A stretch of 64,000 nucleotides of DNA. Origin: Ignavibacteriota bacterium (GTDB taxonomy: Bacteria > Bacteroidota > Ignavibacteria > Ignavibacteriales > Melioribacteraceae). The notes beneath the pieces are model-generated. The model saw only the letters and a program-made list of their open reading frames with translations. It did no database searches and was not told where the DNA came from. Below are positions 8,327-53,645 of this stretch, piece after piece; position 1 is the stretch's first letter; every line of letters begins with the position of its first letter. The stretch spans positions 124,001 through 188,000 of the forward strand of contig JABFGH010000006.1 in assembly GCA_013112585.1 (NCBI GenBank), written 5' to 3'. A program made the position numbers and the translations under genes.

Positions 8327-9181
8327 TTGAAAATAACAAAGCAATATACTAATCGCGAAAGTCAATCACTTGATAAGTATTTACAAGAGATAGGAAAAGT
8401 TGATCTTTTAACACCCGATGAAGAGATTGATTTGGCGATTAAGATCAAAAAAGGAGACCAGCTTGCATTAGAGCGTTTGGTTAAAGCTAACTTACGATTT
8501 GTTGTAAGCGTTGCTAAACAATATCAAAATCAAGGCTTGTCTCTTGGCGATTTAATTAACGAAGGAAATCTTGGTCTCATTAAAGCTGCAAAACGGTTCG
8601 ATGAAACTCGCGGATTTAAGTTTATTTCCTATGCAGTTTGGTGGATTCGTCAATCCATACTTCAAGCGCTGGCAGAACAGTCTAGAATAGTTAGATTACC
8701 CTTAAATAGGGTGGGAGCGCTCAACAAAATAGGAAAAGCTTACAGCAACCTTGAACAAGAATTTGAAAGAGAACCAAGTGCCAACGAGCTTGCAAAAGAG
8801 CTCGAAATGGATATCAGTGAAGTTTCCGATACATTAAAAATTTCAGGTCGTCATGTATCAATGGATGCACCATTCGCCCAAGGCGAGGATAATAGATTAT
8901 TAGATGTGCTTTCCAATGACTCTCAGCCGACACCGGATTTTACATTGATGTCAGAATCGTTAAAAAATGAAATTGAACGCGCCCTTTCTACATTAACCGA
9001 AAGGGAAGCCGAAGTAATCAAACTTTACTTCGGATTAAATAAAGAACATTCTTTAACTCTTGAAGAAATAGGTGAAAAATTTAACCTTACAAGAGAACGT
9101 GTACGCCAAATTAAAGAAAAGGCAATAAGAAGATTACGCCACGCATCCCGAAGTAAAAACTTAAGGGCTTATCTTGGCTGA
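8327..9181 (+). CDS. rpoD: Primary RNA polymerase sigma factor (RpoD/SigA type)
   Basis: A 284-residue sigma-70 factor of the short Bacteroidota kind without region 1.1. Region 1.2 is [20 protein letters not shown] and region 2 includes [30 protein letters not shown] with the -10 recognition helix around [22 protein letters not shown]. Region 3 follows, then region 4 with the -35 helix-turn-helix [20 protein letters not shown]. The combination of a full region 1.2, a complete region 4 and typical length marks it as the housekeeping factor. TTG start with a strong RBS; 11 bases after the EutN/CcmL gene. Confidence 0.93.
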
Positions 9182-14958: not shown

Positions 14959-15377
14959 GAGGCTGTCACAAAAGTCGCTGTTCGGTCATTGCGATCCCGA
15001 TGTTCTTTATCGGGAGAAGCAATCTTTAAAATTTAACCCGAATTATGCAAAAGAGATAATAGCACGGTGCTTCAGCGCCGTGAATCCTGCCCGTCCGGCA
15101 GGCGGGATTGAACAAATATAAATATTGGGTTTTAACCCAAACGGTTTTGGGCCTGCCCACCGGCAAGGCGGGCTAAAGCCCCTTACATAATTTTAAAATC
15201 AATCACCGTCATACCCGCCTGCCGGACGGGCAGGAATGACGGTGCAATTAAAAAGACAATTTTTATTTAGACTTTATTAATTATTTCTAATGCATAACTC
15301 GGGTTTAATTTAGACTGAGATCACTTCTCCCGACAAGTCGGGAGAAGTGATGACAAAATAACTTTTGTGACAGCTTC
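14959..15377. mobile_element. 419-bp element with 17-bp terminal inverted repeats, no transposase
   Basis: GAGGCTGTCACAAAAGT at 14959-14975 is matched by ACTTTTGTGACAGCTTC at 15361-15377 in inverted orientation (16 of 17). Runs of five T flank both ends and could be a target duplication, though they are low complexity. Inside are a hairpin near 14998-15014 (CCCGAT with ATCGGG), a perfect 14-bp stem with a 2-base centre at 15321-15350 (TCACTTCTCCCGAC), and a second nested element. There is no coding capacity, so this is an insertion-sequence relic or MITE-like element. It fills most of the gap between fumC and the next gene. Confidence 0.65.
15035..15305 (+). repeat. Palindrome-rich repeat element, copy 1 (nested)
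   Basis: A 271-bp element bounded by AACCCGAATTATGCA (15035-15049) and TGCATAACTCGGGTT (15291-15305), an inverted pair matching at 14 of 15. It contains a string of GC-rich hairpins unlike the surrounding A+T-rich DNA: CACGGTGC with GCGCCGTG, CCTGCC with GGCAGG, and a long CACCGTCAT...ATGACGGTG stem. An inverted second copy lies at 20191-20482. It has no open reading frame of note, and is probably a non-autonomous mobile element or REP-like sequence. Confidence 0.8.
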
Positions 15378-33278: not shown

Positions 33279-33307
33279 TTGACATTTATTTTAATTACAG
33301 ATACTTT
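33279..33307 (+). promoter_or_regulatory. Promoter of the TonB receptor-glpD-gntR operon
   Basis: TTGACA (33279-33284) and TACTTT (33302-33307) are 17 bases apart, the ideal sigma-70 spacing, about 85 bases before the receptor start codon. The operator palindrome begins one base after the -10 box. Confidence 0.65.
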
Positions 33308-33308
33308 C

Positions 33309-33332
33309 GTATAGTTGTCTATACAACTATAC
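33309..33332. promoter_or_regulatory. Operator palindrome, likely site for the HutC-type GntR regulator
   Basis: GTATAGTTGT-CTAT-ACAACTATAC is a perfect 10-bp inverted repeat. Its core, read on the opposite strand as AGTTGTATAGACAACT, resembles the GTATAGAC-centred sites known for HutC-subfamily regulators such as NagR/YvoA. It covers the expected transcription start, so binding would block initiation. The operon it heads encodes such a regulator at 42037-42810. Confidence 0.75.
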
Positions 33333-33393
33333 ATTTAGATGTTCAGATTTTTATCACAATTCATTTTTTTTAGAACTTTTATTTGGAGAATGG

Positions 33394-36105
33394 ATGATTA
33401 AAAATAGTACGATTCTACTGCTTTTTCTCCTAATTTCTACAATTCAAATCAATGCCGGAGTAACCGGAAAATTAAAGGGAACAATTAAAGACGCCGAAAC
33501 AGGCGAAGTACTTATTGGTGCAAATGTTATGCTCGAAGGCACAACAATGGGTGCCGCATCCGATGAAAACGGTGAATATTTTATTCTCAACATTCCACCG
33601 GGCAAGTATAATATTATTGTTTCTTACATCAGTTATCAAAAGCAAAAAATAACCGGTGTTGAAATATTAACCGACAGAACAACTGAACAGAATATCTTAT
33701 TGAGCAGCGAAACAATAACAACCGAAGAAGTTGTTATTTCCGGCAAGCGAGAAGCAATTGAAACTGATAGAACCAATACTGCCGCATACATTTCATCCGA
33801 ACAAATAAGTAATCTTCCGGTGCAGGATGTTACTGACATAATACAATTGCAATCGGGAGTTGTTAAGGGAGCCAATGGCGCACTTCATATAAGGGGCGGC
33901 AGAAGCGGTGAAATTAATTACATGATTGACGGCGTTTCGGTTACCGATCAGTATAGAGGCGGAAGTTCAATTGGGCTCGAAAATAATTGGGTTCAGGAAC
34001 TGCAGGTTATAAGCGGTACTTTCAATGCCGAATATGGTCAAGCTCAATCCGGTGTTATAAATATTGTAACCAAGGAAGGGAGTAAAAAATTCAGCGGCAG
34101 CGCTTCTGTTGCCGTAGGCGATTATGTAAGTTCTAGGAATGATGTATTTATGAACATCGATAAAATTAACTTAAATGAAATTGATGCATCATTAAACTTA
34201 AACGGACCCGTACCTTTTATTCCTAACACATCTTACTATACCTCATTTAGGTACAATGATAAAGAAGGCTGGCTTTATGGACAGAGGAGAACTCGAATTG
34301 AAGATACCGTTCCCATTCAAGCATATATAAGTGAAGCTGAAAGAAATCAAACCGATAGAGAAAAATTAGCAGGCATAAAAGTACCCGACTCTCTGCAAAC
34401 TGGCGACAATGCTTATGTGCCTTTAAATTTCAATGAAAAATATTCTCTCTATGGAAAATTTTCGAATAAGCTGACTACCGATATTAGTGTTCGTTATTCA
34501 ATCTTTTACAATTACCGAAATTACAAATCATACAGCGATTACAGAAGATATGCACCCGATGGAGTTAAGCCGATAACAAATAAGAATTATAACCACATCG
34601 TAAATTTGAATCATGTATTGTCGGCTAGTACTTTTTACACATTAAACTTTTCGCTTTACAGCCAAAATATTGAATCCAAACTTTTTGATGATATGCTTGA
34701 TCCCCAATACCAGGGCACACCTCATGCTAATCAAGGCTTTGCTTTCGGCGGAACAACTAATTCAAGAAGCGATATTACAAACTCGGCAATGACAGTTAAA
34801 ATCGATTTGACAAGCCAGGTTAATAATGCTAATCAAATTAAAGTAGGTGCATCATTTAAAAAGCATAAGCTGGATTATTTTACAATGTCAACAATTTCGG
34901 ATGGACCGGTTTATCAAGATCCTAATCTTAGAATTCCTGCTGCCAATACTGACAACTATAACGAATATATTAATGAACCTTACGAAGCAGTTTTTTATGC
35001 TCAAGATAAAATTGAACTTGATGAACTTATTGTTAATGTTGGCGCTAGGTTAGATTATTGGAATCCAAACGCTAAAATTCCTTCAAACCCAAGAGCAATA
35101 ACTGACCCTAATGACGGGATAAGGCTTAGTACGGAATTTGAAAATGCCGATGACAGATTTAATATCAGTCCACGCTTTGGTCTCGCTTACCCGCTTTCGG
35201 CAAATGGTGTTGTTCATGTTTCTTACGGACACTTTTTTCAACTGCCGAGATTTAATGCAATATTTTCAAACTCTGAATTTGAAGTAAGTTTGGGCGGACT
35301 TAATACTATAATGGGTAACGCAGATTTAAAACCCGAACAAACTGTTAATTATGAATTAGGTCTTCAGCAGGTAATATCGGATTTAATTAGTGTTGACTTT
35401 ACGATGTACTACAAAGACATCAAAAATTTATTGAGTCAGGAAATTATTAATACCTCCGATAAAAAAGTTTATGCACGTTATATCAATAGAGATTACGGCA
35501 ATGTAAAAGGATTTACAGTAGCCGTAAAAACTTTAAACCAAGCAAGTTTCTTTGCTGCACTGGATTATACATATCAAGTAGGTAAAGGTAATGCCTCGGA
35601 TCCCAACTCGGTTTTTACAAACTTTCAATCAAACCCGCCAAAGGAAAGTGAGAAGCAGGTAATACCATTAGATTGGGATCAAGCACATACACTTAATGCA
35701 TCTTTATATGTCGGCAATAATGTTGAGTGGTCACTTGGTTTGATCGGAAGATATTCAACCGGACAGCCATACACGCCTTCAAACCCAAGCAGCGAACTGA
35801 CCGAACAGTTTGAAAATAGTGAGCGCAAACCTGATCTATTTAATATCGACTTAAATTTTTATAAAAACTTTAACCTTTCCGGTTTTAAAATACAGTTATT
35901 CTGTAAAGTGTTTAACTTATTAGACGGCTTGAATGCAAGGTATGTGTACTCAAGCACAGGTAATCCGGAGGCTCCTTATCGCTCATCAGTCTCCAACGAA
36001 ATTGTAAAACTTAATCCTAATTTTACAAAAGCTGAAATAGATAACAGACCGGATTTTTACCAAGAACCAAGAAGAGTTCTATTAGGAGTAAAGCTAGATT
36101 TTTAA
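33394..36105 (+). CDS. TonB-dependent outer-membrane receptor
   Basis: A 903-residue receptor with, in order, a signal peptide (about 1-21), a carboxypeptidase-regulatory-like beta-sandwich (TGKLKGTIKDAETGEVLIGANV ... IPPGKYNIIVSYISY, about 25-100), the plug domain (LPVQDVTDIIQLQSG, LHIRGGRSGEINYMIDGVSV) and a C-terminal beta-barrel ending in LLGVKLDF, with the terminal Phe typical of outer-membrane proteins. It should import a ligand too large for porins, using TonB energy. It heads the operon behind the GntR-type operator. The co-encoded glpD suggests a glycerophosphate-containing ligand, by inference. Confidence 0.9.
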   Translation: MIKNSTILLLFLLISTIQINAGVTGKLKGTIKDAETGEVLIGANVMLEGTTMGAASDENGEYFILNIPPGKYNIIVSYISYQKQKITGVEILTDRTTEQNILLSSETITTEEVVISGKREAIETDRTNTAAYISSEQISNLPVQDVTDIIQLQSGVVKGANGALHIRGGRSGEINYMIDGVSVTDQYRGGSSIGLENNWVQELQVISGTFNAEYGQAQSGVINIVTKEGSKKFSGSASVAVGDYVSSRNDVFMNIDKINLNEIDASLNLNGPVPFIPNTSYYTSFRYNDKEGWLYGQRRTRIEDTVPIQAYISEAERNQTDREKLAGIKVPDSLQTGDNAYVPLNFNEKYSLYGKFSNKLTTDISVRYSIFYNYRNYKSYSDYRRYAPDGVKPITNKNYNHIVNLNHVLSASTFYTLNFSLYSQNIESKLFDDMLDPQYQGTPHANQGFAFGGTTNSRSDITNSAMTVKIDLTSQVNNANQIKVGASFKKHKLDYFTMSTISDGPVYQDPNLRIPAANTDNYNEYINEPYEAVFYAQDKIELDELIVNVGARLDYWNPNAKIPSNPRAITDPNDGIRLSTEFENADDRFNISPRFGLAYPLSANGVVHVSYGHFFQLPRFNAIFSNSEFEVSLGGLNTIMGNADLKPEQTVNYELGLQQVISDLISVDFTMYYKDIKNLLSQEIINTSDKKVYARYINRDYGNVKGFTVAVKTLNQASFFAALDYTYQVGKGNASDPNSVFTNFQSNPPKESEKQVIPLDWDQAHTLNASLYVGNNVEWSLGLIGRYSTGQPYTPSNPSSELTEQFENSERKPDLFNIDLNFYKNFNLSGFKIQLFCKVFNLLDGLNARYVYSSTGNPEAPYRSSVSNEIVKLNPNFTKAEIDNRPDFYQEPRRVLLGVKLDF

Positions 36106-36119
36106 ATAAGGGAAATTTT

Positions 36120-39100
36120 ATGATTAAGAAATTATTCACACTTTTAATTTTATCAGCTATTCTATTGCCTATAACAAACTTTGGGCAAAAGGATACAAAC
36201 CCGAATAGCGATTTTAAAAAGATTTTAGGCGCCGCCGATAGAAGAACAGGAATTCATGACGGCAACCTTGTCTATACCCGTTTCTCGAACTTCGGCAATC
36301 TCGGCAGCCGTTACGAACCTCCTAAAATGGAATGGCCGAAAGGTTCGGGCACATGGTATGGTTATGAATTTATAATGATTGCCGGTGCTGAAGTTACAGA
36401 TGCTAACGGAAACACAATTCATATCATGTCGGAAAATTACACTAATCCCGGTTCGTTTGATATATCACCCGATGGAACTCATACTTACGGCTGGGAACCT
36501 TTGCCCGGATATTTTAACTATGGACCGGAAAATACAAATGAATTTCCTGCAATGAGCCATTTACCTGAAACTTGGCCGGGTACTTGGATTCATGATTATC
36601 CCGGTACGCAAGGCAGCAGGGATGGATTGTGGAATGGTGAATTCGGCGCTTACACAAGAGCCGACCAGGAAAGCTACTATGTGATGGATGATAGAAATAA
36701 TGATGAGTTTGAATATTACCCGTATGTAGGCAGTGCCGTTGATTCTGCCGGTTATCCGAACGGAAGAAGAGGACTTGGATTAGAAGTTAAAGTCCGCGGC
36801 TATCAATGGGTGCAGGTTGAAGCTGAAGATATTTTAATTACACGGTACGATATTCAAAATGTTAGTGATAAAGATTTAAGTAAAGTTGTATTTGGGATGT
36901 ATGTTGACCCCGCCGTTGGCGGAGAAGGTGATTCGCAGGATGACGATGCTTATTTTGAACATATTGATGATATTACTTACTGCTGGGATCTTGATGGTAT
37001 TGATAATAAAGGAAGACCCGGTGTTGGGTATTTCGGATTTGCATTTCTCGAAAGCCCCGGTGATCCTTTAAATGGAATTGACGACGACGATGACGGACTT
37101 ATTGATGAAGTTCAATCAAACGATGCGGGTAGTTATATTTTTGGTCCCGTAGGAATATTTGGTGAGGATAAGTGGCACTGGAGCGGAGATGAAGACGGCG
37201 ACTGGCGAAGCTACGAAGACATTAACGAAAATGGTGTTTGGGATCCAAACGAACCAATTTTTGATGACGTGGGTTCTGATGGAATTGGTCCCAACGATCA
37301 AGATTATACAGGACCTGATTTTGACGGAACAGAAGCTAACGGTATGCCCGACCAAGGCGAACCTAATTTTGGATTCACAGATAATGATGAATCAGACCAG
37401 ATTGGATTAACAAGTTTTGTATTAAGACCCGCAGGCAACATTAGTGCGGATGAAACAACATGGAACGAAATGATACCCGGTTACTTCGGCGGTGTTCTGC
37501 CGGGAAACTTAGCTTTTATTTACGGGTCAGGGTATTTTTCACTCCCGCAAAATGAAACTAGAAAATTTGCAGTCGCCTGTCTATTCGGTAATGATTTTGA
37601 TGACATCATCAGAAACAAGCGAACCATGCAGCGGATTTACGATGCCGACTACAACTTCACAAAGCCGCCGCTTCTTCCAACGGTAAAAGCAACCCCGCAG
37701 GATAAAAGAGTAATATTAACATGGGATGCCAGGGCAGAACAATCAATTGATCCAATCTATAAAAAAGATTTTGAAGGGTACTTAATTTATCGTTCAACTG
37801 ATCCTTCGTTTAACAGCATCAAACTTATTTCTGATTCGTACGGCAACCCTATATTTTGGGAACCGATTGCACAGTTCGATTACGTAAATGGTCTAAGCGG
37901 ACCTCACCCGGTACCAATTGGCGAAACCGGCGCTAACTTTAATATGGGTACCGATAACGGATTAGTTTACAGCTACATTGATAACAATGTTGAAAACGGC
38001 AGAACTTATTATTATGCAGTTGTTTCATACGACAAAGGTTATGATACTGATTTTTATTCCAGAGGTTTAACAACGCAGGAAAACCTTGCGCCGGCAGCAC
38101 CAAGTGAATGCAGCAAAATTATTCAAACTAATCTTGTTGGCGATGTTATATCGGTAGGCAGAAACTGTGCTGTTGTTGTTCCAAATGCTCCTTCTGCCGG
38201 ATACACAGACCCGCATTTAAAGGAAGGTGTAATTCATTCCGGCGGTGTTGCAACGGGCAGCGTAAGTGTTGATGCCCTTGTTGCCGACGAAATTTTGAAT
38301 GATCATGTTTATCAAGTAGTGTTTACCGATACTACATTTGCACGGGCTACAAAGAGCATTACAATTAAAGACGCAACTGAAAACCGAATAGTTTACCACA
38401 GCGATGTTTATGATCCAACCTATTTGGAAAGTATAATTATAGAAGGTTTAAAATTTCAATTAGAGAATGATACCGTTGCTGTTGTTGACCAGGGATGGAA
38501 TGTCGGCGGCGGCGGACTTACTGCCTCAATCGGTTTACTTGAATCACCTAAGCAGGTTAAACTACCGGAGGATTTTGAGATTAGAGTTGGTGAAGCCGGA
38601 ATTGATACTTCATTTGCACCGTTAGCTTTTCAGAGAAGCCCCGTTAATTTTGAAGTCTGGAGCACTACTACAAATCAACAATATGAGTTTCTATTTGATG
38701 AAACTATTTATAAAGACAGCATCTTAAACACAGGTGATGAAATTGTAATTGCCCTTGATGCAAGAGGCTTTCAGTATAAAACCGCAATGAGATTAAATTT
38801 TGATCACGGCGGAGATTCAACAAAAATTACTCCCGCTGTTGGTGATGTTTTTCAATTTAAGGTGAGTAAGCCTTTTAACGCCGATGATATTTATGAGTTT
38901 GTTACAATAGGTGCTGAGATTGATAAGGAAAAAGCAAAAAATAATTTAGATGATATTTATGTAGTGCCCGATCCTTATGTATCAAACGCTTCATGGGAAA
39001 AACCGCTTTTCTATTCGGCAGGGAGAGGTGAAAGAAGAATTGATTTTGTAAACCTCCCGACAAAATGCACAATACGTATTTACACAATGAGCGGCGTGCT

Positions 39101-39260
39101 GGTTAAAACAATTGAACGCAATGCCGCCGAAGAAAATGGTGCGGAATCATGGGATCTAACAACCGAAGATGGTTTAACGGTTGCATTCGGCATGTATATT
39201 TTTCATGTAGATGGATTTGAGCTTGGTGAAAAAATTGGAAAGTTCGCATTAATAAAATAA
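36120..39260 (+). CDS. Large exported partner of the TonB receptor, T9SS-like C-terminus
   Basis: A 1046-residue exported protein starting 14 bases after the receptor gene. An N-terminal domain (about 30-290) resembles that of the T9SS proteins at 20548 and 22350, including the DILITRYDIQNVSDKDLS ... YVDPAVGG block. Acidic calcium-binding-like stretches follow (DDDDDGLIDE near 322, DINENGVWDPNEP near 365, dockerin or EF-hand style). A fibronectin-like segment starts near 520 (LPTVKATPQDKRVILTWDA). The end (MYIFHVDGFELGEKIGKFALIK) is a sorting-domain-like tail without the NPFNP motif. It is probably a surface-exposed ligand-handling protein working with the receptor, in the position a SusD would take, though it is not a SusD homologue by eye. 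Confidence 0.7.
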   Translation: MIKKLFTLLILSAILLPITNFGQKDTNPNSDFKKILGAADRRTGIHDGNLVYTRFSNFGNLGSRYEPPKMEWPKGSGTWYGYEFIMIAGAEVTDANGNTIHIMSENYTNPGSFDISPDGTHTYGWEPLPGYFNYGPENTNEFPAMSHLPETWPGTWIHDYPGTQGSRDGLWNGEFGAYTRADQESYYVMDDRNNDEFEYYPYVGSAVDSAGYPNGRRGLGLEVKVRGYQWVQVEAEDILITRYDIQNVSDKDLSKVVFGMYVDPAVGGEGDSQDDDAYFEHIDDITYCWDLDGIDNKGRPGVGYFGFAFLESPGDPLNGIDDDDDGLIDEVQSNDAGSYIFGPVGIFGEDKWHWSGDEDGDWRSYEDINENGVWDPNEPIFDDVGSDGIGPNDQDYTGPDFDGTEANGMPDQGEPNFGFTDNDESDQIGLTSFVLRPAGNISADETTWNEMIPGYFGGVLPGNLAFIYGSGYFSLPQNETRKFAVACLFGNDFDDIIRNKRTMQRIYDADYNFTKPPLLPTVKATPQDKRVILTWDARAEQSIDPIYKKDFEGYLIYRSTDPSFNSIKLISDSYGNPIFWEPIAQFDYVNGLSGPHPVPIGETGANFNMGTDNGLVYSYIDNNVENGRTYYYAVVSYDKGYDTDFYSRGLTTQENLAPAAPSECSKIIQTNLVGDVISVGRNCAVVVPNAPSAGYTDPHLKEGVIHSGGVATGSVSVDALVADEILNDHVYQVVFTDTTFARATKSITIKDATENRIVYHSDVYDPTYLESIIIEGLKFQLENDTVAVVDQGWNVGGGGLTASIGLLESPKQVKLPEDFEIRVGEAGIDTSFAPLAFQRSPVNFEVWSTTTNQQYEFLFDETIYKDSILNTGDEIVIALDARGFQYKTAMRLNFDHGGDSTKITPAVGDVFQFKVSKPFNADDIYEFVTIGAEIDKEKAKNNLDDIYVVPDPYVSNASWEKPLFYSAGRGERRIDFVNLPTKCTIRIYTMSGVLVKTIERNAAEENGAESWDLTTEDGLTVAFGMYIFHVDGFELGEKIGKFALIK

Positions 39261-39284: not shown

Positions 39285-40346
39285 ATGTTAAAATATCTAC
39301 TGCAATTTACCGCAATTATAATTTTGATAAGTGCCGGATCAGTTTTTGCACAAGCAGGCGAGGAAGATTTTGCCGACCTCAACTACTCAAGTGATGTAAC
39401 AAAAACCGGAACATCTGCTGCCAGCTTTTTAGAAATTGGCGTTGGTGCAAAAGCTAAAGGATTAGGCGGCGCATTCACTGCTTTAGCTTCGGATGTTTCA
39501 GCACTTTACTGGAACCCCGGCGGATTAGTTAATACTGAAAATGTCTCGTTCTCAATAAATCATTCCGAATGGCTGGCTGATACTAAATCACAATTTTTTG
39601 GTTTAGTCTTCCCATTCTCCGATAGGGTTGCACTCGGGTTCAGTTTCAACACACTTAATTATGGTGATATGCGGCCCGTGAGAACTATAGCACAGCCCGA
39701 AGGCACAGGCGAGTTTTATGATGCTCTCGATTTAGCTGTCGGGGCAACATTCGCTATGCGGGTAACAGATAGATTTTCGTTCGGCATAACAGGTAAATAT
39801 ATTTCGCAAAAAATTTGGCACGAAACAGCAAGCGCTCTGGCTCTTGATGTCGGCGTACTTTACAAAACTCAATTAGAAGGATTTAATATCGGTACAAGTA
39901 TTTCAAATTTCGGTTCCGATATGAAAATGGAAGGACGCGATTTGGTAAGAGCTTATGATGCAGATGATAAAAATTATTCAAACGATAAATTAAATGTGCT
40001 GCTTAAGACAGATGAATTTCCGCTGCCATTAATTTTCCGTTTCGGACTTTCGTATGAGTTTGAATTTATTGAAGACAATGGTTTTACTGTTGCCGCTGAT
40101 TTAGTTCATCCAAGCAATAATAATATTTATGCTAATACCGGCATTGAATATAATTTTCAAAATCTATTAAAGCTGCGTGCCGGCTATGAAACATTGTTCC
40201 ATGATAATAGCGAACAGGGTTTAACCCTTGGTGTTGGTATTGATAATCCCTTTGCAAATACATTAGATTTTTCACTCGATTATGCTTATGTGGATTGGGG
40301 ACGGCTTGGATACATTCAGCAGTTTTCAATCGATTTAGGTTTTTAA
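39285..40346 (+). CDS. PorV/PorQ-family outer-membrane protein
   Basis: A 353-residue beta-barrel protein with a signal peptide ending SVFAQ. The diagnostic start of the mature part is GTSAASFLEIGVGAKAKGLGGAFTALASDVSALYWNPGGL, as in PorV/PorQ proteins. PorV is the outer-membrane shuttle that carries T9SS cargo to the attachment complex. The copy here sits between the surface partner protein and glpD, so it may serve the operon's own cargo. It ends with a C-terminal Phe (IQQFSIDLGF). Confidence 0.87.
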   Translation: MLKYLLQFTAIIILISAGSVFAQAGEEDFADLNYSSDVTKTGTSAASFLEIGVGAKAKGLGGAFTALASDVSALYWNPGGLVNTENVSFSINHSEWLADTKSQFFGLVFPFSDRVALGFSFNTLNYGDMRPVRTIAQPEGTGEFYDALDLAVGATFAMRVTDRFSFGITGKYISQKIWHETASALALDVGVLYKTQLEGFNIGTSISNFGSDMKMEGRDLVRAYDADDKNYSNDKLNVLLKTDEFPLPLIFRFGLSYEFEFIEDNGFTVAADLVHPSNNNIYANTGIEYNFQNLLKLRAGYETLFHDNSEQGLTLGVGIDNPFANTLDFSLDYAYVDWGRLGYIQQFSIDLGF

Positions 40347-40367: not shown

Positions 40368-42050
40368 ATGAGTAAAGATTTAGACAAAAATTTAAAACCT
40401 TTATATGATATTTTAATAATCGGCGGCGGTATTAATGGCGCCGGTATTGCCTTAGATGCAGCAATGAGAGGATATTCTGTTTTATTGGTGGAAAAAAATG
40501 ATTTCGGTGGAAGTACAACAAGTAATTCAACAAAATTAATTCACGGCGGGCTGCGTTATTTAGAATATATGGAGTTCCCGTTAGTACGTGAATCACTTAG
40601 GGAAAGAGAACACATTCTTCAGAATGCACCACATCTGATTAAACCGATTAAAATAAATTTTCCCTTCTATGGACATAGTAAAAGAGGTCCTTACATTTTA
40701 AAACTCGGAATGATTCTCTATGATTTACTTTCATACGATAAGAGCATGCCTAATCATTCATTCATGTTTAATTTCAATAAGAAAAAACTGCATGACTTTA
40801 TACCGACATTAAGGAAAAAAGGTTTGAGAGGCATTGCAAGTTATTTTGATTGTCAGGCTTTATACCCCGAAAGATTGAATTTGGAAATAATACTTTCAGC
40901 TAATTGCGAAGGTGCCGATACAATGAATCACTTTGCTTTTAATTCAATGAAATGGGATGGAGAAAGATATACTGTTAATTTAACTGATACTATTAATGAT
41001 CAGCAATATTCAGTTGGGGCAAAATTTGTTGTAAATGCAACCGGACCCTTTGTTGATAACATTAATAAAGCTATCGATACAAATATTCCAAGACTGATGG
41101 GCGGAACCAAGGGAAGCCATATACTAATTGACAAATTTGAAAATGGACCGGAAGATGGATTATACATTGAGGCAATTCAAGACGGAAGACCCTTTTTTAT
41201 TTTACCCTGGGATGAATATTATTTAGTAGGTACAACCGATATTTTTTACAACGGCGATCTCGACAATATAGTTGCAACAGAAGATGAAGTAGAATATTTG
41301 CTTCATGAACTTAACTATTTTACCGATTCAAAGGAGTTCACCAGGGATGATGTGGTTTATACATATTCCGGAATAAGACCGCTGCCGTATGAACCGGATA
41401 AATCCGAAAGCCAGGTAACAAGAAACCATATAATTTATGACCATGAGAAAAAGGAAAACATTAAGAATTATATTTCAATTGTTGGCGGCAAGTTAACTAC
41501 ATATAGAAATCTTGCTGAAGATACAATTGATGCAATTGAAAAGAAGTTAGGCAGAAAGCATAAATGTTTAACAAAAGAATACAAATTGTTCGGTGCAAAA
41601 GGAATTGCAGATATCGATAGTTTTAAGGAAGAAAACATTGAATACTATACAAATAAATATCAGATAGAAGAAAGTATTGTTAACTACTTAATAGATTTTT
41701 ACGGTGTCAAGTTTATTGAAGTTCTTAAATACATTGATTTAAATTCAAAACTGAAAGAACGAATTGATCCTGAACGAAATGATATTAAAGCGCAAATATA
41801 TTATGCTGTAGAAGTTGAAAAAGCAAAAACACTTGAAGATATAATTATAAGAAGAACATCACTCGGAACACATGGTACATTGGGGTACGACACTGTTGAA
41901 GAAATTGCGGAAATAGCCGCACCTCTTTTAAGCATGAATGAAAATGAAAAACTGAAAGCTATTGAAAATTATAAAGAGAAAATTAAAAATCATTATAAAC
42001 TCAATGAAAAATTCATAGAAAAGAGAGCAGAAAAATATGTTGCCCATTGA
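40368..42050 (+). CDS. glpD: Aerobic glycerol-3-phosphate dehydrogenase
   Basis: A 560-residue FAD enzyme that oxidises glycerol-3-phosphate to dihydroxyacetone phosphate at the inner membrane and passes electrons to quinone. The FAD Rossmann motif is DILIIGGGINGAGIALDAAMRG (about 15-36), followed by the glpD signature FGGSTTSNSTKLIHGGLRYLE. Further family motifs are FFILPWDEYYLVGTTD and YSGIRPLP with SIVGGKLTTYR. The C-terminal helical domain is complete. Its last 14 bases overlap the gntR start, so regulator and enzyme are translationally coupled. Confidence 0.95.
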   Translation: MSKDLDKNLKPLYDILIIGGGINGAGIALDAAMRGYSVLLVEKNDFGGSTTSNSTKLIHGGLRYLEYMEFPLVRESLREREHILQNAPHLIKPIKINFPFYGHSKRGPYILKLGMILYDLLSYDKSMPNHSFMFNFNKKKLHDFIPTLRKKGLRGIASYFDCQALYPERLNLEIILSANCEGADTMNHFAFNSMKWDGERYTVNLTDTINDQQYSVGAKFVVNATGPFVDNINKAIDTNIPRLMGGTKGSHILIDKFENGPEDGLYIEAIQDGRPFFILPWDEYYLVGTTDIFYNGDLDNIVATEDEVEYLLHELNYFTDSKEFTRDDVVYTYSGIRPLPYEPDKSESQVTRNHIIYDHEKKENIKNYISIVGGKLTTYRNLAEDTIDAIEKKLGRKHKCLTKEYKLFGAKGIADIDSFKEENIEYYTNKYQIEESIVNYLIDFYGVKFIEVLKYIDLNSKLKERIDPERNDIKAQIYYAVEVEKAKTLEDIIIRRTSLGTHGTLGYDTVEEIAEIAAPLLSMNENEKLKAIENYKEKIKNHYKLNEKFIEKRAEKYVAH

Positions 42051-42810
42051 AAATAGAGCACCTCGTTATTATCAAATATTTCAGGATATCTATAATAAAA
42101 TTGATGAAGGTGATTTTAAAAATGGTGATCAGCTCCCAAGTGAAGCTGAGCTATGCAAAGCATATAATGTAAGCAGAGGAACATTACGCGAAGGATTAAA
42201 ACTACTATTTCAATACGGATTATTAGTCCGAGAACAAGGGCGCGGCACTTTTGTTACAGTTCATAAAATAGGGCAGGATGTTAATCAGTTAATGGGCTTT
42301 ACAAGTTTGATGCAGAGCCACAACAAAAAAGCTTCGGGCAAAATTTTAGAAACACATACCAAATTACCCAACCCGATTGTAAAACAATTGATGCAGCTTG
42401 ATGATAATGAAGAAGTAGTAAGAATTATCCGGCTGCGCTACGGTGATGATAAACCACTAATAATTGAAAGATCATACTTTACGGAAAGACTGTTTAAACC
42501 GCTGCAGGAATATGATCTTGAAAAAGAATCTATTTATGAATTGTTGTATAAACATACCAACCAAAGGCTGGGTAAAGCGAAACAGTCTATAGAAGCAGCC
42601 GTGGCAACACCAACAGAAGCAGAACTTTTTAATATTAATGTCGGGGCGCCCCTTTTGCTTATGACGAGATTAATTATGCTTAGAGACGGAACCCCGTTTG
42701 AATATTCTAAAGACATATACAGAGCAGATAAACTAAAATTTACAATAGAAACAAAACCATACGAGGAAAGTTCAAACAATATTTTGCTTGAGCTTGTTAA
42801 TTTTCAATAG
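42037..42810 (+). CDS. GntR-family regulator of the HutC subfamily
   Basis: A 257-residue repressor-type protein. The N-terminal winged helix-turn-helix is RYYQIFQDIYNKIDEGDFKNGDQLPSEAELCKAYNVSRGTLREGL (about 9-55). The C-terminal UTRA effector domain (about 90-240) is marked by IRLRYGDDKPLIIERSYF and MTRLIMLRDGTPFEYSKDIYRADKLKF. UTRA domains bind small metabolites, often phosphorylated ones. The ATG lies within the end of glpD. The likely target is the palindrome at 33309-33332 in the operon promoter, giving autoregulation. The effector may be glycerol-3-phosphate or a precursor; this is inferred from neighbours. Confidence 0.92.
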   Translation: MLPIENRAPRYYQIFQDIYNKIDEGDFKNGDQLPSEAELCKAYNVSRGTLREGLKLLFQYGLLVREQGRGTFVTVHKIGQDVNQLMGFTSLMQSHNKKASGKILETHTKLPNPIVKQLMQLDDNEEVVRIIRLRYGDDKPLIIERSYFTERLFKPLQEYDLEKESIYELLYKHTNQRLGKAKQSIEAAVATPTEAELFNINVGAPLLLMTRLIMLRDGTPFEYSKDIYRADKLKFTIETKPYEESSNNILLELVNFQ

Positions 42811-42850: not shown

Positions 42851-45406
42851 ATGAAAAATAATTACAAGACAACTAATTGGACAATTTTAATCATAGCTTT
42901 GTTTATGATAAGTTCAAATTTAGTAAACGCACAATGGGGCAAAGCCTTACATTATAAGTGGTGGGAACATGATAGAGTAATTGTTCCTCAAGCAGCAGAT
43001 TACTGGCCGTTTGTAGTTAATGAAGGTACAGTGGAAATGTGGTTTAAACCCGATTCAGTTTTAAAAGCTGATACACATGACCCTGACTACACGTATTTAT
43101 TTTCGAAAAATATTTCTGGTAATAATGAAGGAGACATGGGAATATCGTGGGGTAGAGGAAAAGGAGAATTACAGAATTTTATTCAAGATGGAACAGCAAC
43201 AACAAGCGTTTATCCCACGTACTCAGTTTGGGAACCTCGCTGGTATCACTTAGCATTTCAGTGGAATGTGAACGACAGCATGAGAGTATTCATCGACGGT
43301 GTTCAGCATGATGCAGTTGCTCCATGCCCGCCCGTACATGGCGGCACTCAAGCAATCGTAATTGGTTCTGGTGCAGTGAATTTATTAGATACCCGCTATG
43401 AAACATTCCGCGGACAAATTGATGAAGTAAGAATTTCTGCAGTAGCCCGGTATACCGAAAACTTTTCGCCCCCTACTGCTCCATATCAAAATGATCAATT
43501 TACTTTAGCACTATGGCATTTTGATGACGGTGCCGGGCTAGTTGCAACAGATGCAACCGGAAATGGTTTTGATGGTATTTTAGGTGATACAACTAATATT
43601 GGAAGCAACGCACCAGACTGGGTTACTGTTGAAAGAGATATGCTTATTGTTGTTAATGAATTTCTGGCAGACCCTGAAGCATCCGTTGAATTTGGTGATG
43701 CTAATGGTGACGGCGTTAGAGATGCACAAGAGGACGAGTATGTTGAATTATTAAATGTAAGCGGAAGAGATATCGATTTAACCGGCTGGAGCTTAGGCGA
43801 TGACGAAAGAGTCGATTTTCAATTTCCTGACGGTTACATAATTAAGCCTTACGAATTTGTTTCTATATTCGGCGGCGGTAATGTTTCCAATGTTCCCGGT
43901 TATAATGCTGATCCCTTATTGACTAGAGTTTTCGCAACGGGTGACAGTGTTGGAAACGGTTTAGCAAATGGCGGCGATTATATTGTAATGCTATCGCCCG
44001 ATGGAAGTCATGACATGTATTTAGCTTACGGCAGCAAGTTTGGAGCCGGAGCACCAACAGCTGCTTTCCTAAGCGGAATTACATGGAGCTTTGAAGTTGA
44101 AACAGCTTCAATCGCCAATAACAATAATTCATTAACTATGAATCCTGACGGCGTAATGTCCGGAGACGATTATTACTTTGAGATTTTATCAGTCACTGAC
44201 AGTGCCCGTTATCATTCTGCAAACAGAACTGTTGACGGCAATGAAACGATTTCGTTTGAACTTAATGTTATTGTTGAAGGTCAAGGTACTGTTGAACAAG
44301 ATACAACGATGGTAACCTATCCATTAGGTACACAAGTAAACTTAACTGCAACACCTGCTGATGCCTGGGTTTTAGATGGATGGTATGTAGATGGTGAAAA
44401 AAGTTCCGGCAATCCTTATGCTGTATTGATGAATAACAATGTTGATTTAACAGTAAAATTTGTAGAGCAATTTCAAGTTGCACCAAAACTTATCTTTAAC
44501 GAAATACTACCTGACGTTGCTAATGACCCGGTAAATGGTGATGCTAATGGTGACGGTTATAGAGATAGCAGCGAAGATGAGTTTGTTGAATTAGTTAATA
44601 TTTCAAGGCAGCCATTTGATTTAACAGGATTTAAACTCGGCGATGATGAAGACCTTAGCTTCACATTCCCGGATGGTTATATGGTACAGCCGGGTAACTT
44701 TGTTGTAGTCTTCGGCGGCGGTGATGTTTCCAATGTTCCCGGTTACAACCCCGACCCATTGCAGACCAAGGTATTTATTTCTGATAGTGTAGGTGTAGGA
44801 AACGGATTAGCTAACGGCGGTGATTTTGTATTATTGATTTCTCCTGATGGTGCATACGATATGTATATGTCGTACGAAGGAAAATATAATATTGCAGGTC
44901 CTACATCTTCGGTTGTTGACGGAATAGATTTTGAACTACGTATTGAAACAGATGTAGCAGCCAGTGATCCTTCAATTACTCGAAATCCTGACGGTGATAT
45001 TTCTGTTGGAAATCCGTTCATCCAGATCACAACCGTTACCGATTCTATTTACTGGACGCCGGGACAAACAATCGATGGAAATAATATGATTGTTGTTGGA
45101 GTTGATGAAATTGAAACAGGTATTCCATCTAACTTTGAATTGTTTGATAATTATCCGAATCCATTTAACCCATCTACTATTATTAAAGCGGCTCTTCCTG
45201 CTGCACAGCATGTTAGTCTAAAAGTATATAATATTAATGGTGAGTTAGTAACTACATTAGTTAATGGAACATTGAATGCAGGTTACCACCGGTTTGAATG
45301 GAATGGAACAAATAGTGCAGGACAAAGAGTATCTTCAGGAATTTATTTTTATCAAATTAGCGCCGGTGAATTATACCAGGTTAAAAAGATGATGCTCATT
45401 AAATAG
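42851..45406 (+). CDS. T9SS surface protein with LamG, two lamin-tail domains and InlB-type repeat
   Basis: An 851-residue exported protein. After the signal peptide (ends VNAQ) comes a concanavalin/LamG-like domain at about 35-245 (EGTVEMWFKPDS, RWYHLAFQWNVNDSMRVFIDG, RGQIDEVRISAVARY). A first lamin-tail domain lies at about 265-415, an InlB B-repeat-like domain at about 467-538 (GTVEQDTTMVTYPLGTQVNL, WYVDGEKSSGN), a second lamin-tail domain at about 544-690, and a T9SS sorting domain closes it (FDNYPNPFNPSTIIKAALP ... KKMMLIK). Each lamin-tail unit carries a GDANGDG calcium-type loop. It is the last gene before the hairpin at 45414 and is probably a glycan- or lipid-surface-binding protein; the ligand is unknown. 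Confidence 0.85.
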   Translation: MKNNYKTTNWTILIIALFMISSNLVNAQWGKALHYKWWEHDRVIVPQAADYWPFVVNEGTVEMWFKPDSVLKADTHDPDYTYLFSKNISGNNEGDMGISWGRGKGELQNFIQDGTATTSVYPTYSVWEPRWYHLAFQWNVNDSMRVFIDGVQHDAVAPCPPVHGGTQAIVIGSGAVNLLDTRYETFRGQIDEVRISAVARYTENFSPPTAPYQNDQFTLALWHFDDGAGLVATDATGNGFDGILGDTTNIGSNAPDWVTVERDMLIVVNEFLADPEASVEFGDANGDGVRDAQEDEYVELLNVSGRDIDLTGWSLGDDERVDFQFPDGYIIKPYEFVSIFGGGNVSNVPGYNADPLLTRVFATGDSVGNGLANGGDYIVMLSPDGSHDMYLAYGSKFGAGAPTAAFLSGITWSFEVETASIANNNNSLTMNPDGVMSGDDYYFEILSVTDSARYHSANRTVDGNETISFELNVIVEGQGTVEQDTTMVTYPLGTQVNLTATPADAWVLDGWYVDGEKSSGNPYAVLMNNNVDLTVKFVEQFQVAPKLIFNEILPDVANDPVNGDANGDGYRDSSEDEFVELVNISRQPFDLTGFKLGDDEDLSFTFPDGYMVQPGNFVVVFGGGDVSNVPGYNPDPLQTKVFISDSVGVGNGLANGGDFVLLISPDGAYDMYMSYEGKYNIAGPTSSVVDGIDFELRIETDVAASDPSITRNPDGDISVGNPFIQITTVTDSIYWTPGQTIDGNNMIVVGVDEIETGIPSNFELFDNYPNPFNPSTIIKAALPAAQHVSLKVYNINGELVTTLVNGTLNAGYHRFEWNGTNSAGQRVSSGIYFYQISAGELYQVKKMMLIK

Positions 45407-45413
45407 TAATTTA

Positions 45414-45446
45414 AGCCGGCAGGTATTTAACCTGCCGGCTATTTTT
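45414..45446 (+). terminator. Internal intrinsic terminator-like hairpin
   Basis: AGCCGGCAGGT (45414-45424) and ACCTGCCGGCT (45430-45440) form a perfect GC-rich 11-bp stem with a 5-base loop, followed by ATTTTTAT. It comes 8 bases after a stop codon and only 17 bases before the next start codon, leaving almost no room for a separate promoter, so it may reduce rather than end transcription of the downstream genes. Confidence 0.85.
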
Positions 45447-49049: not shown

Positions 49050-49829
49050 ATGAAACAGCTATTACTTCTGATAACAATTTTACTAACACTATTTGCGTGC
49101 GAAATGAAAAAGGAAACTATTATAGTCGCTCACCGCGGTGCCTCCGGTCATGCACCTGAAAATACTTTAGCTGCAATGAAAACAGCTATGGAAATGAATG
49201 CTGAATTCAGCGAACTGGATGTACAGGAAACAAAAGATGGTGAAATAATTCTTCTGCATGATAAAACACTAAAGCGAACTGGAAAACAAAATTTAAATAT
49301 TTGGGAACTTAACTATGACGAGTTGAAAGATATTGAAGTAGGAGGGTGGTACGCGGAGGAATTTAAAGGTGAACCTATTCCTACTCTTGCTGAGGTTATT
49401 GAATTAGTTAGGGGCAAAATGAAATTGAATATTGAGCTTAAAACTAACAAGCATGAAAAAATGTTAGCCGAGCGGGCACTGCAGGTAGTTCTTGATCATA
49501 ACTTTTTAGATCAAGTTGTGTTTACCTCATTCAAGTTCGATGAAATAAGAAAGCTTCGCAAGATAAATAAAGAAGCTAAGGTTGGTTATATTTTTTCAAA
49601 AATGCCCAAGGATATTGATGTGTTTGCCGAAGATGTTGATATGCTAAGTGTAGGTAAAAAATTAGTGGATGAAGAGTTTATGAATAAAGTACGTGCAGCA
49701 GGCAAAGAAGTTGCAGTTTGGACTGTTAACAAACCTAAAGAAATGAAAAGATTGATTAACCTTGGCGTTGATGCAATCATTACAAACTACCCTGATGTGC
49801 TGCGTGAAGTTCTTGACGGTAAACAATAA
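49050..49829 (+). CDS. glpQ: Glycerophosphodiester phosphodiesterase, lipoprotein
   Basis: A 259-residue TIM-barrel enzyme that cuts glycerophosphodiesters, such as glycerophosphocholine or glycerophosphoethanolamine, into glycerol-3-phosphate and the head-group alcohol. The signal peptide ends in lipobox LFAC (Cys17), so it is anchored at a membrane facing the periplasm. The catalytic motif is IIVAHRGASGHAPENTLAAM (about 25-44), followed by ELDVQETKDGEIILLHDKTL and the C-terminal VWTVNKPKEMKRLINLGVDAIITNYPD. It sits in the same unit as glpT, which would import its product. Confidence 0.95.
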   Translation: MKQLLLLITILLTLFACEMKKETIIVAHRGASGHAPENTLAAMKTAMEMNAEFSELDVQETKDGEIILLHDKTLKRTGKQNLNIWELNYDELKDIEVGGWYAEEFKGEPIPTLAEVIELVRGKMKLNIELKTNKHEKMLAERALQVVLDHNFLDQVVFTSFKFDEIRKLRKINKEAKVGYIFSKMPKDIDVFAEDVDMLSVGKKLVDEEFMNKVRAAGKEVAVWTVNKPKEMKRLINLGVDAIITNYPDVLREVLDGKQ

Positions 49830-52292: not shown

Positions 52293-53645
52293 ATGTTTTC
52301 AAAATTTATTAATTGGTTTAAGCCTGATCCGCCGATTGAAAGAGTGCCGAAAGAAAAGGTAAAAAAGCTGTATAAAATTAATCGCTGGCGGGTACTTGAA
52401 TCAACTTTTATGGGTTACGCGATATTCTATCTTGTTAGAAACAACTTATCTACAGTTGCCAAAGATATAGAGGGTGCACTGGGCTACGATTATAACATGA
52501 TAGGAAATATATTAGCTTTTTCGGCTATTGCCTATGGCATTGGTAAATTTTTAAATGGGGCTTTATCTGATAGAAGCAACCCAAGAAAATTTATGGCATT
52601 CGGGCTATTACTTACAGCTCTAATAAATTTTGCATTCGGGGGTGTGCAAAATTATTACCTTCATTTATTTTTATGGACACTCAACGGGTTTGTTCAAGGA
52701 ATGGGCTGGCCTCCGTGCGGTCGTTCAATCGGGCATTGGTTCAGCATTAAAGAGCGCGGTTCGGTGTTTGCAATTTGGAATATTTCTCATAACATCGGCG
52801 GCGGTATTGCTGGTATAATTGCAGCTTATGCAACAATTCATTTTGGCGGCTGGCATGCAGCGTTTTATGTGCCGGGTGCAATTGCTTTAATTGGTTCAAT
52901 ATATTTGTTTTTAAGATTAAGAGATACGCCGCAGTCAATTGGTCTTCCGCCGATTGAAGAGTTTTCAGATACTTATTCTGAAAATGAAGAGAATCGTGAG
53001 AATAGAGAAAAAGAATTAACAACAAGAGAATTATTTGTTGACAATATCCTTAAGAATAAATATCTCTGGCTTTTTGCGATTGCTAATTTATTCGTTTACA
53101 TCGTTAGATACAGTATGCTCGATTGGGGACCAACATACCTGCGCGAAGTAAAAGAATCAACACTGCAGGGAGGCGGAATTGCCGTTCTCGTATTGGAGTT
53201 TGGCGGTATCCCATCTACATTGTTAATGGGCTGGCTTTCCGATAAAGTCGGCGGAAGAAGAGGAATGGTGAGCCTGCTCTGCATGATTCCTATTCTATTT
53301 GCCTTCCTCGGTATTTACTTAAATCCTGCCGGATATATTTGGATAGATTTTACATTGCTTGCGGTAGTGGGATTTTTTATTTATCCTCCTGTTATGCTGC
53401 TCGGCGTTGCCGGTTTGGATCTGACTTCTAAAAAAGCAGTCGGCACCGCAGCCGGTTTTATTGGATTGTTCGGATATATCGGAAGAACAATACAGGCAAA
53501 AGGTTTCGGCTGGATGGCAGATTACTTCGGCGAAATATACGGTAAGCAGACAAGCTGGGATATAATTATAATGTCGATATTAGCAAGTACATTAATTGCA
53601 ATTATTCTTCTTGCATTCACCTGGAAAATAAAACCTAAAGCTTAA
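52293..53645 (+). CDS. glpT: Glycerol-3-phosphate/phosphate antiporter
   Basis: A 450-residue, 12-helix major-facilitator protein of the organophosphate:phosphate antiporter family. It is very close by eye to GlpT: GYAIFYLVRNNLSTVAK contains the first substrate Arg, followed by SDRSNPRKFMAFGL, NGFVQGMGWPPCGRSIGHW, RDTPQSIGLPPIEEF, NLFVYIVRYSMLDWGPTYLREVKE (second Arg region) and GWLSDKVGGRRG. It imports glycerol-3-phosphate in exchange for phosphate, feeding GlpD. RBS GAGGAG at 52280-52285. The next gene follows after 2 bases. Confidence 0.95.
   Translation: MFSKFINWFKPDPPIERVPKEKVKKLYKINRWRVLESTFMGYAIFYLVRNNLSTVAKDIEGALGYDYNMIGNILAFSAIAYGIGKFLNGALSDRSNPRKFMAFGLLLTALINFAFGGVQNYYLHLFLWTLNGFVQGMGWPPCGRSIGHWFSIKERGSVFAIWNISHNIGGGIAGIIAAYATIHFGGWHAAFYVPGAIALIGSIYLFLRLRDTPQSIGLPPIEEFSDTYSENEENRENREKELTTRELFVDNILKNKYLWLFAIANLFVYIVRYSMLDWGPTYLREVKESTLQGGGIAVLVLEFGGIPSTLLMGWLSDKVGGRRGMVSLLCMIPILFAFLGIYLNPAGYIWIDFTLLAVVGFFIYPPVMLLGVAGLDLTSKKAVGTAAGFIGLFGYIGRTIQAKGFGWMADYFGEIYGKQTSWDIIIMSILASTLIAIILLAFTWKIKPKA

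Follow-up and report, generated by a model that had tools for sequence, protein, structure and literature searches.

A palindromic operator predicted to place a glycerol-3-phosphate operon under its own GntR/HutC-type regulator in the Melioribacteraceae

A perfect 24-bp palindrome lies one base downstream of a predicted promoter in an Ignavibacteriota bacterium, which raises the questions of which protein recognizes this element and which signal that protein senses. Within the window, by which we mean the whole stretch of 64,000 nucleotides that was analysed, the palindrome precedes a six-gene operon whose fifth gene, at 42037-42810, encodes a GntR/HutC-type regulator. We estimate a probability of roughly 0.85 that the palindrome is the operator of this regulator, and that the protein represses the operon until glycerol-3-phosphate (G3P) relieves repression. 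The elements of the promoter region are as follows.

33279-33284, + strand: -35 element TTGACA (TTGACT at the equivalent position in the relative G053)
33285-33301: 17-nt spacer between TTGACA and TACTTT
33302-33307, + strand: -10 element TACTTT, matching TATAAT at three of six positions
33308: single base C between TACTTT and the palindrome
33309-33332: predicted operator, 10-4-10 palindrome GTATAGTTGTCTATACAACTATAC, with arms GTATAGTTGT-CTAT-ACAACTATAC
33309-33310, + strand: outer GT box at -12/-11, mirroring the AC box and equal to the conserved outer AC on the minus strand
33315-33326: conserved operator core TTGTCTATACAA, reading TTGTATAGACAA on the minus strand
33331-33332, + strand: outer AC box, +11/+12 from the centre, a symmetric element
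33385-33388, + strand: GGAG, ribosome-binding-like, with an ATG 5 nt further on

The letters and coordinates of the promoter and palindrome, as reported in an initial annotation of this DNA, are exact, and the two arms (33309-33318 and 33323-33332) are 100% complementary. The same annotation called the promoter near-ideal. This description suits the -35 hexamer, which matches the sigma-70 consensus at 6/6 positions, but it overstates the -10 hexamer (3/6). The spacing is 17, and the layout is preserved in G053. Because of the poor match to TATAAT, the output of a standard promoter scan did not include the TACTTT promoter. We also take TACTTTCG to resemble a Bacteroidota-type TAnnTTTG box. TTGACA is likewise found 5' of the operator sites of G220 and of glpK in G037, two further relatives described below. 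Transcription is predicted to start near 33314, with the palindrome covering about -6 to +18.

An element of this kind is rare in its surroundings. Perfect 10-4-10 palindromes occur three times in the window, compared with 0.2 expected from dinucleotide shuffles, and thus the earlier statement that only one such palindrome exists does not apply to 10-4-10 palindromes generally. It does apply to the operator type with a GT-N4-AC centre, which is represented solely by 33309-33332 (0.017 expected). The other two, at 15324 and 28719, have no such centre and look like terminator-type stems. A genome-wide search, as proposed in the initial annotation, recovered the 24-bp palindrome as a single copy in 4,942,932 bases, even when up to 3 mismatches were allowed, rather than as many unrelated copies. 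The 12-bp core TTGTMTAKACAA is present twice in the genome, and its second copy is inside the coding region of a protease gene. Two sites with one mismatch were also found, one of them coding and the other ~20 bp 5' of a carboxypeptidase-like gene with its GT core broken. All of these were rejected, as none has the appearance of an operator. A search of plasmid DNA with the promoter region as the query gave no match.

The genes downstream of the palindrome, and a cluster that follows them, point to the metabolism that the element might control.

33394-36105, + strand: gene 1, TonB-dependent receptor (TBDR; PF00593, PF07715, PF13715)
36120-39260, + strand: gene 2, large exported protein with a weakly matched FlgD-like C-terminus, conserved in synteny and 68% identical in G220
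39285-40346, + strand: gene 3, PorV/PorQ-family outer-membrane protein (NF033709, above cut-off)
40368-42050, + strand: gene 4, GlpD, glycerol-3-phosphate dehydrogenase (NF008899, 369.5 bits, cut-off 360)
42037-42810, + strand: gene 5, GntR/HutC (UTRA) regulator, predicted operator binder (PF00392 and PF07702, above cut-offs)
42851-45406, + strand: gene 6, T9SS-type exported protein with LamG and lamin-tail domains
45414-45440, + strand: strong intrinsic terminator with an 11-bp stem, closing the six-gene unit
49050-49829, + strand: GDPD, glycerophosphodiester phosphodiesterase (PF03009, E 5e-48), with a lipobox-like N-terminus (LFAC), in the downstream cluster
52293-53645, + strand: GlpT-like glycerol-3-phosphate transporter (best match TIGR00712, 436.5 bits, under the 632.55 cut-off)

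Gaps of 14-40 nt separate the six genes, except that glpD and the regulator gene overlap by 14 bp. An SGNH hydrolase and an HAD phosphatase-like protein are also encoded past the terminator, together with GDPD and the GlpT-like carrier, and this location makes control of these genes by the operator uncertain. No glycerol kinase was found in the window genome (99.97% complete), where the sole FGGY_N match is below cut-off, nor in a search of the G220 genome. From this gene content and the absence of the kinase, we infer that the cluster serves the scavenging of phosphorylated glycerol, leading from phosphodiester to G3P and then to dihydroxyacetone phosphate. Despite lacking glycerol kinase, the window genome and G220 each encode GlpD and GDPD at these loci, and the window adds the GlpT-like carrier. 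In G053, glpK and glpF come after the GlpT gene (locus L097).

The initial annotation had placed a HutC-type regulator fifth in the operon, and both the position and the assignment hold. The protein carries an N-terminal GntR winged helix-turn-helix domain (PF00392, 66.8 bits, cut-off 27) and a C-terminal, chorismate-lyase-like UTRA effector domain (PF07702, 127 bits, cut-off 23.8). With the model for the HutC histidine utilisation repressor, TIGR02018, it scores 114.6 bits, below the 220 cut-off. The description of the palindrome core as HutC-style is also borne out, as GTCTATAC at 33317-33324 has a GT-MTAK-AC centre with 4 nt from GT to AC and fits the operator consensus of the HutC subfamily, GTMTAKAC (PMC4494728). 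A plasmid search with the regulator protein returned only members of less than 60% identity, with the top rows at 31-35%.

Relatives of the regulator were used to evaluate whether protein and palindrome occur together. Clear orthologs among 79 genomes of the family are limited to G053 (88% identical) and G037 (54%), and a single-protein scan of named genomes yielded one relative only. The exact 14-bp core is similarly confined to two of the 79 genomes, each of which has a regulator ortholog. The G053 site, GTATAGTTGTCTAGACAACTATAC, lies 5' of the receptor gene and is identical at 23 of 24 positions within flanks of 30-50% identity; its single base change makes the centre fully symmetric. Its layout, TTGACT-17-TAACAT-C-palindrome, is that of the window. 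The operator with its receptor gene and the regulator gene are on separate short contigs of this fragmented MAG, so that their linkage in G053 is presumed. An additional half-site-like GTATAGAC is located directly downstream of the G053 palindrome (L054, about 8426-8433).

More distant genomes retain the association. G220, from another family of the same order, has a largely syntenic operon whose proteins show about 38-68% identity, and its core TTGTATAGACAA is 37 nt 5' of the receptor ATG, behind TTGACA-16-TATATTTG. The gene order in G037 is regulator-glpK-glpD, with a core 5' of glpK and a weaker core 5' of the regulator gene. When 395 genomes from the phylum were searched, nine more orthologs came to light, from two other families, and all nine adjoin glpK and glpD. 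Eight of these genomes carry the exact core (a one-base variant in L093) 5' of glpK or glpD, and the ninth, L091, carries it with one mismatch. The total is 16 sites in 13 genomes, each with at most one core mismatch and just 5' of a glp gene, the regulator gene or the syntenic receptor gene.

Exact cores number 14 in 254 kb of ortholog loci, and 13 of them fall within expected upstream regions, the remaining one being inside a G220 coding region. An exact core is present in 13 of the 16 expected upstream regions, compared with none in 500 shuffles. When a matrix is built with the tested locus left out, the expected site comes out on top in all operator-bearing loci; the window site scores 24.1 bits and the next best there 13.7. 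Together, the 13 orthologs, the 16 sites and this ranking lend independent support to the pairing of promoter and operator with the operon's own regulator that had been proposed from the window alone.

Other palindromes were seen near these genes. Weaker operator-like sites, AATTGACTATACAAGT and ACTTGACTATACAATC, are located just 5' of the regulator gene in L085 (9268) and L086 (9551; strand with the regulator forward), which suggests separate autoregulation in those genomes. Several glpK/glpD promoters in L085-L089 have a LacI-type-looking palindrome (GGAAGCGGTTTCA, GAAAGCGCTTTTA) between TTGAC and the operator that is absent in the window, and this suggests a second regulator at those glycerol promoters. 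UTRA paralogs belonging to another clade are accompanied by a different GntR-like palindrome, TTGTTGGTACAA / TTGTACCAACAA (L047, 10821-10848; L069, 10885; L071, 10894), suggestive of a second HutC-type operator in the class; in these paralogs Asn replaces the Gly beside the recognition Arg. Long palindromes of the form GAAATGCACGG-N9-CCGTGCATTTC recur in L048 (10784-10814), L049 (18629-18660), L052 (63-96) and L053 (17665-17700), shortly 5' of TonB-dependent receptor genes in L048, L049 and L053.

The protein side of the proposed contact can be compared with the NagR-DNA structure, in which Arg48 reads G-4, Arg38 reads G-5 and Gly69 touches G-7 (PMC4333415). For the residue alignment the NagR sequence was typed in, and it agrees with the chain of the solved structure. 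Equivalents of Arg48 and Gly69 are kept in all 13 orthologs, and Arg38 is replaced in all 13. The operators differ correspondingly, with G at -5 in 0/16 sites and T in 16/16. The Arg38 contact of the NagR/DasR type is accordingly absent, the window regulator having Ala at this position. Nag genes are also missing from the regulated operon, which encodes TBDR and GlpD, and the relatives have glpK/glpD. In a tree with ten UTRA paralogs and NagR, the 13 regulators group together as a single clade (support 99/100), although long branches limit resolution of the deeper order. The comparison strongly supports the pairing, and the regulator encoded at 42037-42810 is very likely to bind this site.

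Conservation extends beyond the core. For counts of the outer boxes, sites were oriented by their ATAG centre, which puts the conserved copy of the window on its minus strand. A at +11 and C at +12 are invariant across the 16 sites, whereas the mirror positions are variable (G in 5/16, T in 11/16). This shared outer AC accounts for the length of the palindrome, and in the window and G053 the box is present on both sides to give GT-N6-GT-N4-AC-N6-AC. Sites of the GntR family have been reported to include weaker half-sites at 7-12 nt from the centre that might help to bind additional subunits (PMC4494728). By analogy, the outer box here may take a second dimer.

We propose that a regulator dimer would sit on the core TTGTCTATACAA with one winged helix per half-site. 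Positioned over the predicted start and just 3' of the -10 box, the bound dimer would block initiation for the six-gene operon, and the location of the regulator gene inside this operon would create negative autoregulation. The neighbouring GDPD would cleave phosphodiesters and the GlpT-like carrier would import G3P. Once bound in the UTRA phosphate pocket, G3P would part the DNA-binding domains as in NagR, and the operon would be derepressed.

G3P is probably the main effector. This proposal follows from the retention of the NagR phosphate residues and from the lack of glycerol kinase in the window genome. Specifically, the phosphate ligands Arg133, Arg135, Ser165 and Ile166, as defined for NagR (PMC4333415), are kept in 13/13 orthologs, position 90 being Thr or Ser and position 167 Tyr or Phe. 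The Arg-x-Arg of this pocket is retained in UTRA paralogs too, and hence it indicates a phosphorylated ligand and not G3P specifically. Lineages with and without glpK are both under the regulator, which makes G3P the phosphorylated metabolite that they share. An unlikely alternative is that the regulator binds the site and responds to another inducer, such as an intact glycerophosphodiester, dihydroxyacetone phosphate, glycerol or some other phosphate ester. UTRA domains accept varied ligands, and the GDPD, SGNH hydrolase and phosphatase-like genes beside the operon mark diesters as the external substrate. However, the nine additional orthologs have their operators at glpK/glpD, where glycerophosphodiesters are no obvious substrate, the conserved phosphate pocket argues against free glycerol, and the lack of glycerol kinase also weighs against an inducer other than G3P. 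The initial annotation had named both G3P and glycerophosphodiesters. The pocket, the missing kinase and the glpK/glpD loci favour G3P itself, and the diesters are the weak point of that suggestion.

It is very likely, judging from promoter geometry, that the regulator represses rather than activates. The operator is 3' of the -10 element and over the predicted start, and relatives in which a TTGAC box can be recognised have it at a similar distance from that box, an arrangement that fits steric repression. A few GntR-family members are activators, but this same arrangement makes activation from the palindrome quite improbable.

Instead of serving as a DNA site for a protein, the palindrome could in principle form a hairpin in the leader RNA that affects stability or attenuation, and the versions in the window (-9.8 kcal/mol) and in G053 (-10.0 kcal/mol) do fold as 10-bp stems. 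We nevertheless consider this reading to be ruled out for practical purposes, since the outer arms in G220 are non-complementary and fold at only -0.3 kcal/mol while core and synteny are conserved; in addition, the core can face either way with respect to the gene, and the overlap with the predicted start would leave part of the palindrome untranscribed. Ownership of the site by a different regulator, for example the only other UTRA protein of the genome (contig C7), which shares the Arg48-equivalent DNA contact, is just as implausible and was ruled out because that protein is encoded in a locus for a sugar/alditol ABC transporter, of which the 16 kb read contain no TTGT-N4-ACAA site, falls outside the 13-member glp clade (99/100 support), and is not tracked by the motif, which follows orthologs of the window regulator.

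Repression of the operon by its own regulator, with relief by G3P, can be extended to a broader and more tentative proposal, one that is slightly less likely than not. A clade of GntR/HutC regulators in this phylum, distinct from named families, might sense G3P and read an extended operator (TTGTATAGACAA plus the outer AC, perhaps with a second dimer), and its regulon might have moved from glpK/glpD to phosphodiester scavenging by TonB receptors and T9SS-type proteins in lineages losing glycerol kinase. The regulon has apparently been rewired in this direction. If the proposal is true, then the window and G053 sites represent the fully symmetric, double-boxed form.

The element belongs to a class that is already known and is ordinary in kind. 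In the open-access literature, with most subscription journals outside the search, we found no description of a HutC-type regulator or regulon for glycerol or G3P, and no regulatory literature for Melioribacteraceae. The main published motif survey held only one HutC-subfamily factor from Bacteroidetes (PMC4494728). Our analysis offers a regulator-operator-regulon assignment for Melioribacteraceae, with a likely inducer, that reaches other families of the phylum.

Enterobacterial GlpR, of the DeoR family, represses genes for G3P uptake and oxidation and has G3P as its inducer. The window regulator is proposed to work likewise through G3P-relieved repression, but DeoR and GntR/UTRA proteins are unrelated families and the operators differ. 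HutC is the namesake of the subfamily and has the same domains; however, there are no hut genes in the window operon, and the window regulator is not a HutC ortholog. Streptomyces DasR, which acts at dre sites and for which structures have been solved, also belongs to the HutC subfamily with the same domain order. DasR acts globally on amino-sugar and development genes, whereas the window regulator is local, with a single site. The closest solved structure is that of NagR (YvoA) from Bacillus subtilis (phmmer 3.4e-34 over residues 7-235), which resembles the window regulator in its GntR and UTRA domains, in the dre operator form GTnGTCTAGACnAC and in the conserved phosphate-binding residues. 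In contrast, NagR controls N-acetylglucosamine genes, and natural Bacillus dre sites are imperfect palindromes (PMC4333415), whereas the window site is perfect over 10-4-10. NagR also reads G-5 with Arg38, where the window regulator has Ala and both halves of its operator carry T at -5; this paired loss of Arg38 and change to T would allow the GntR recognition code to be tested cleanly.
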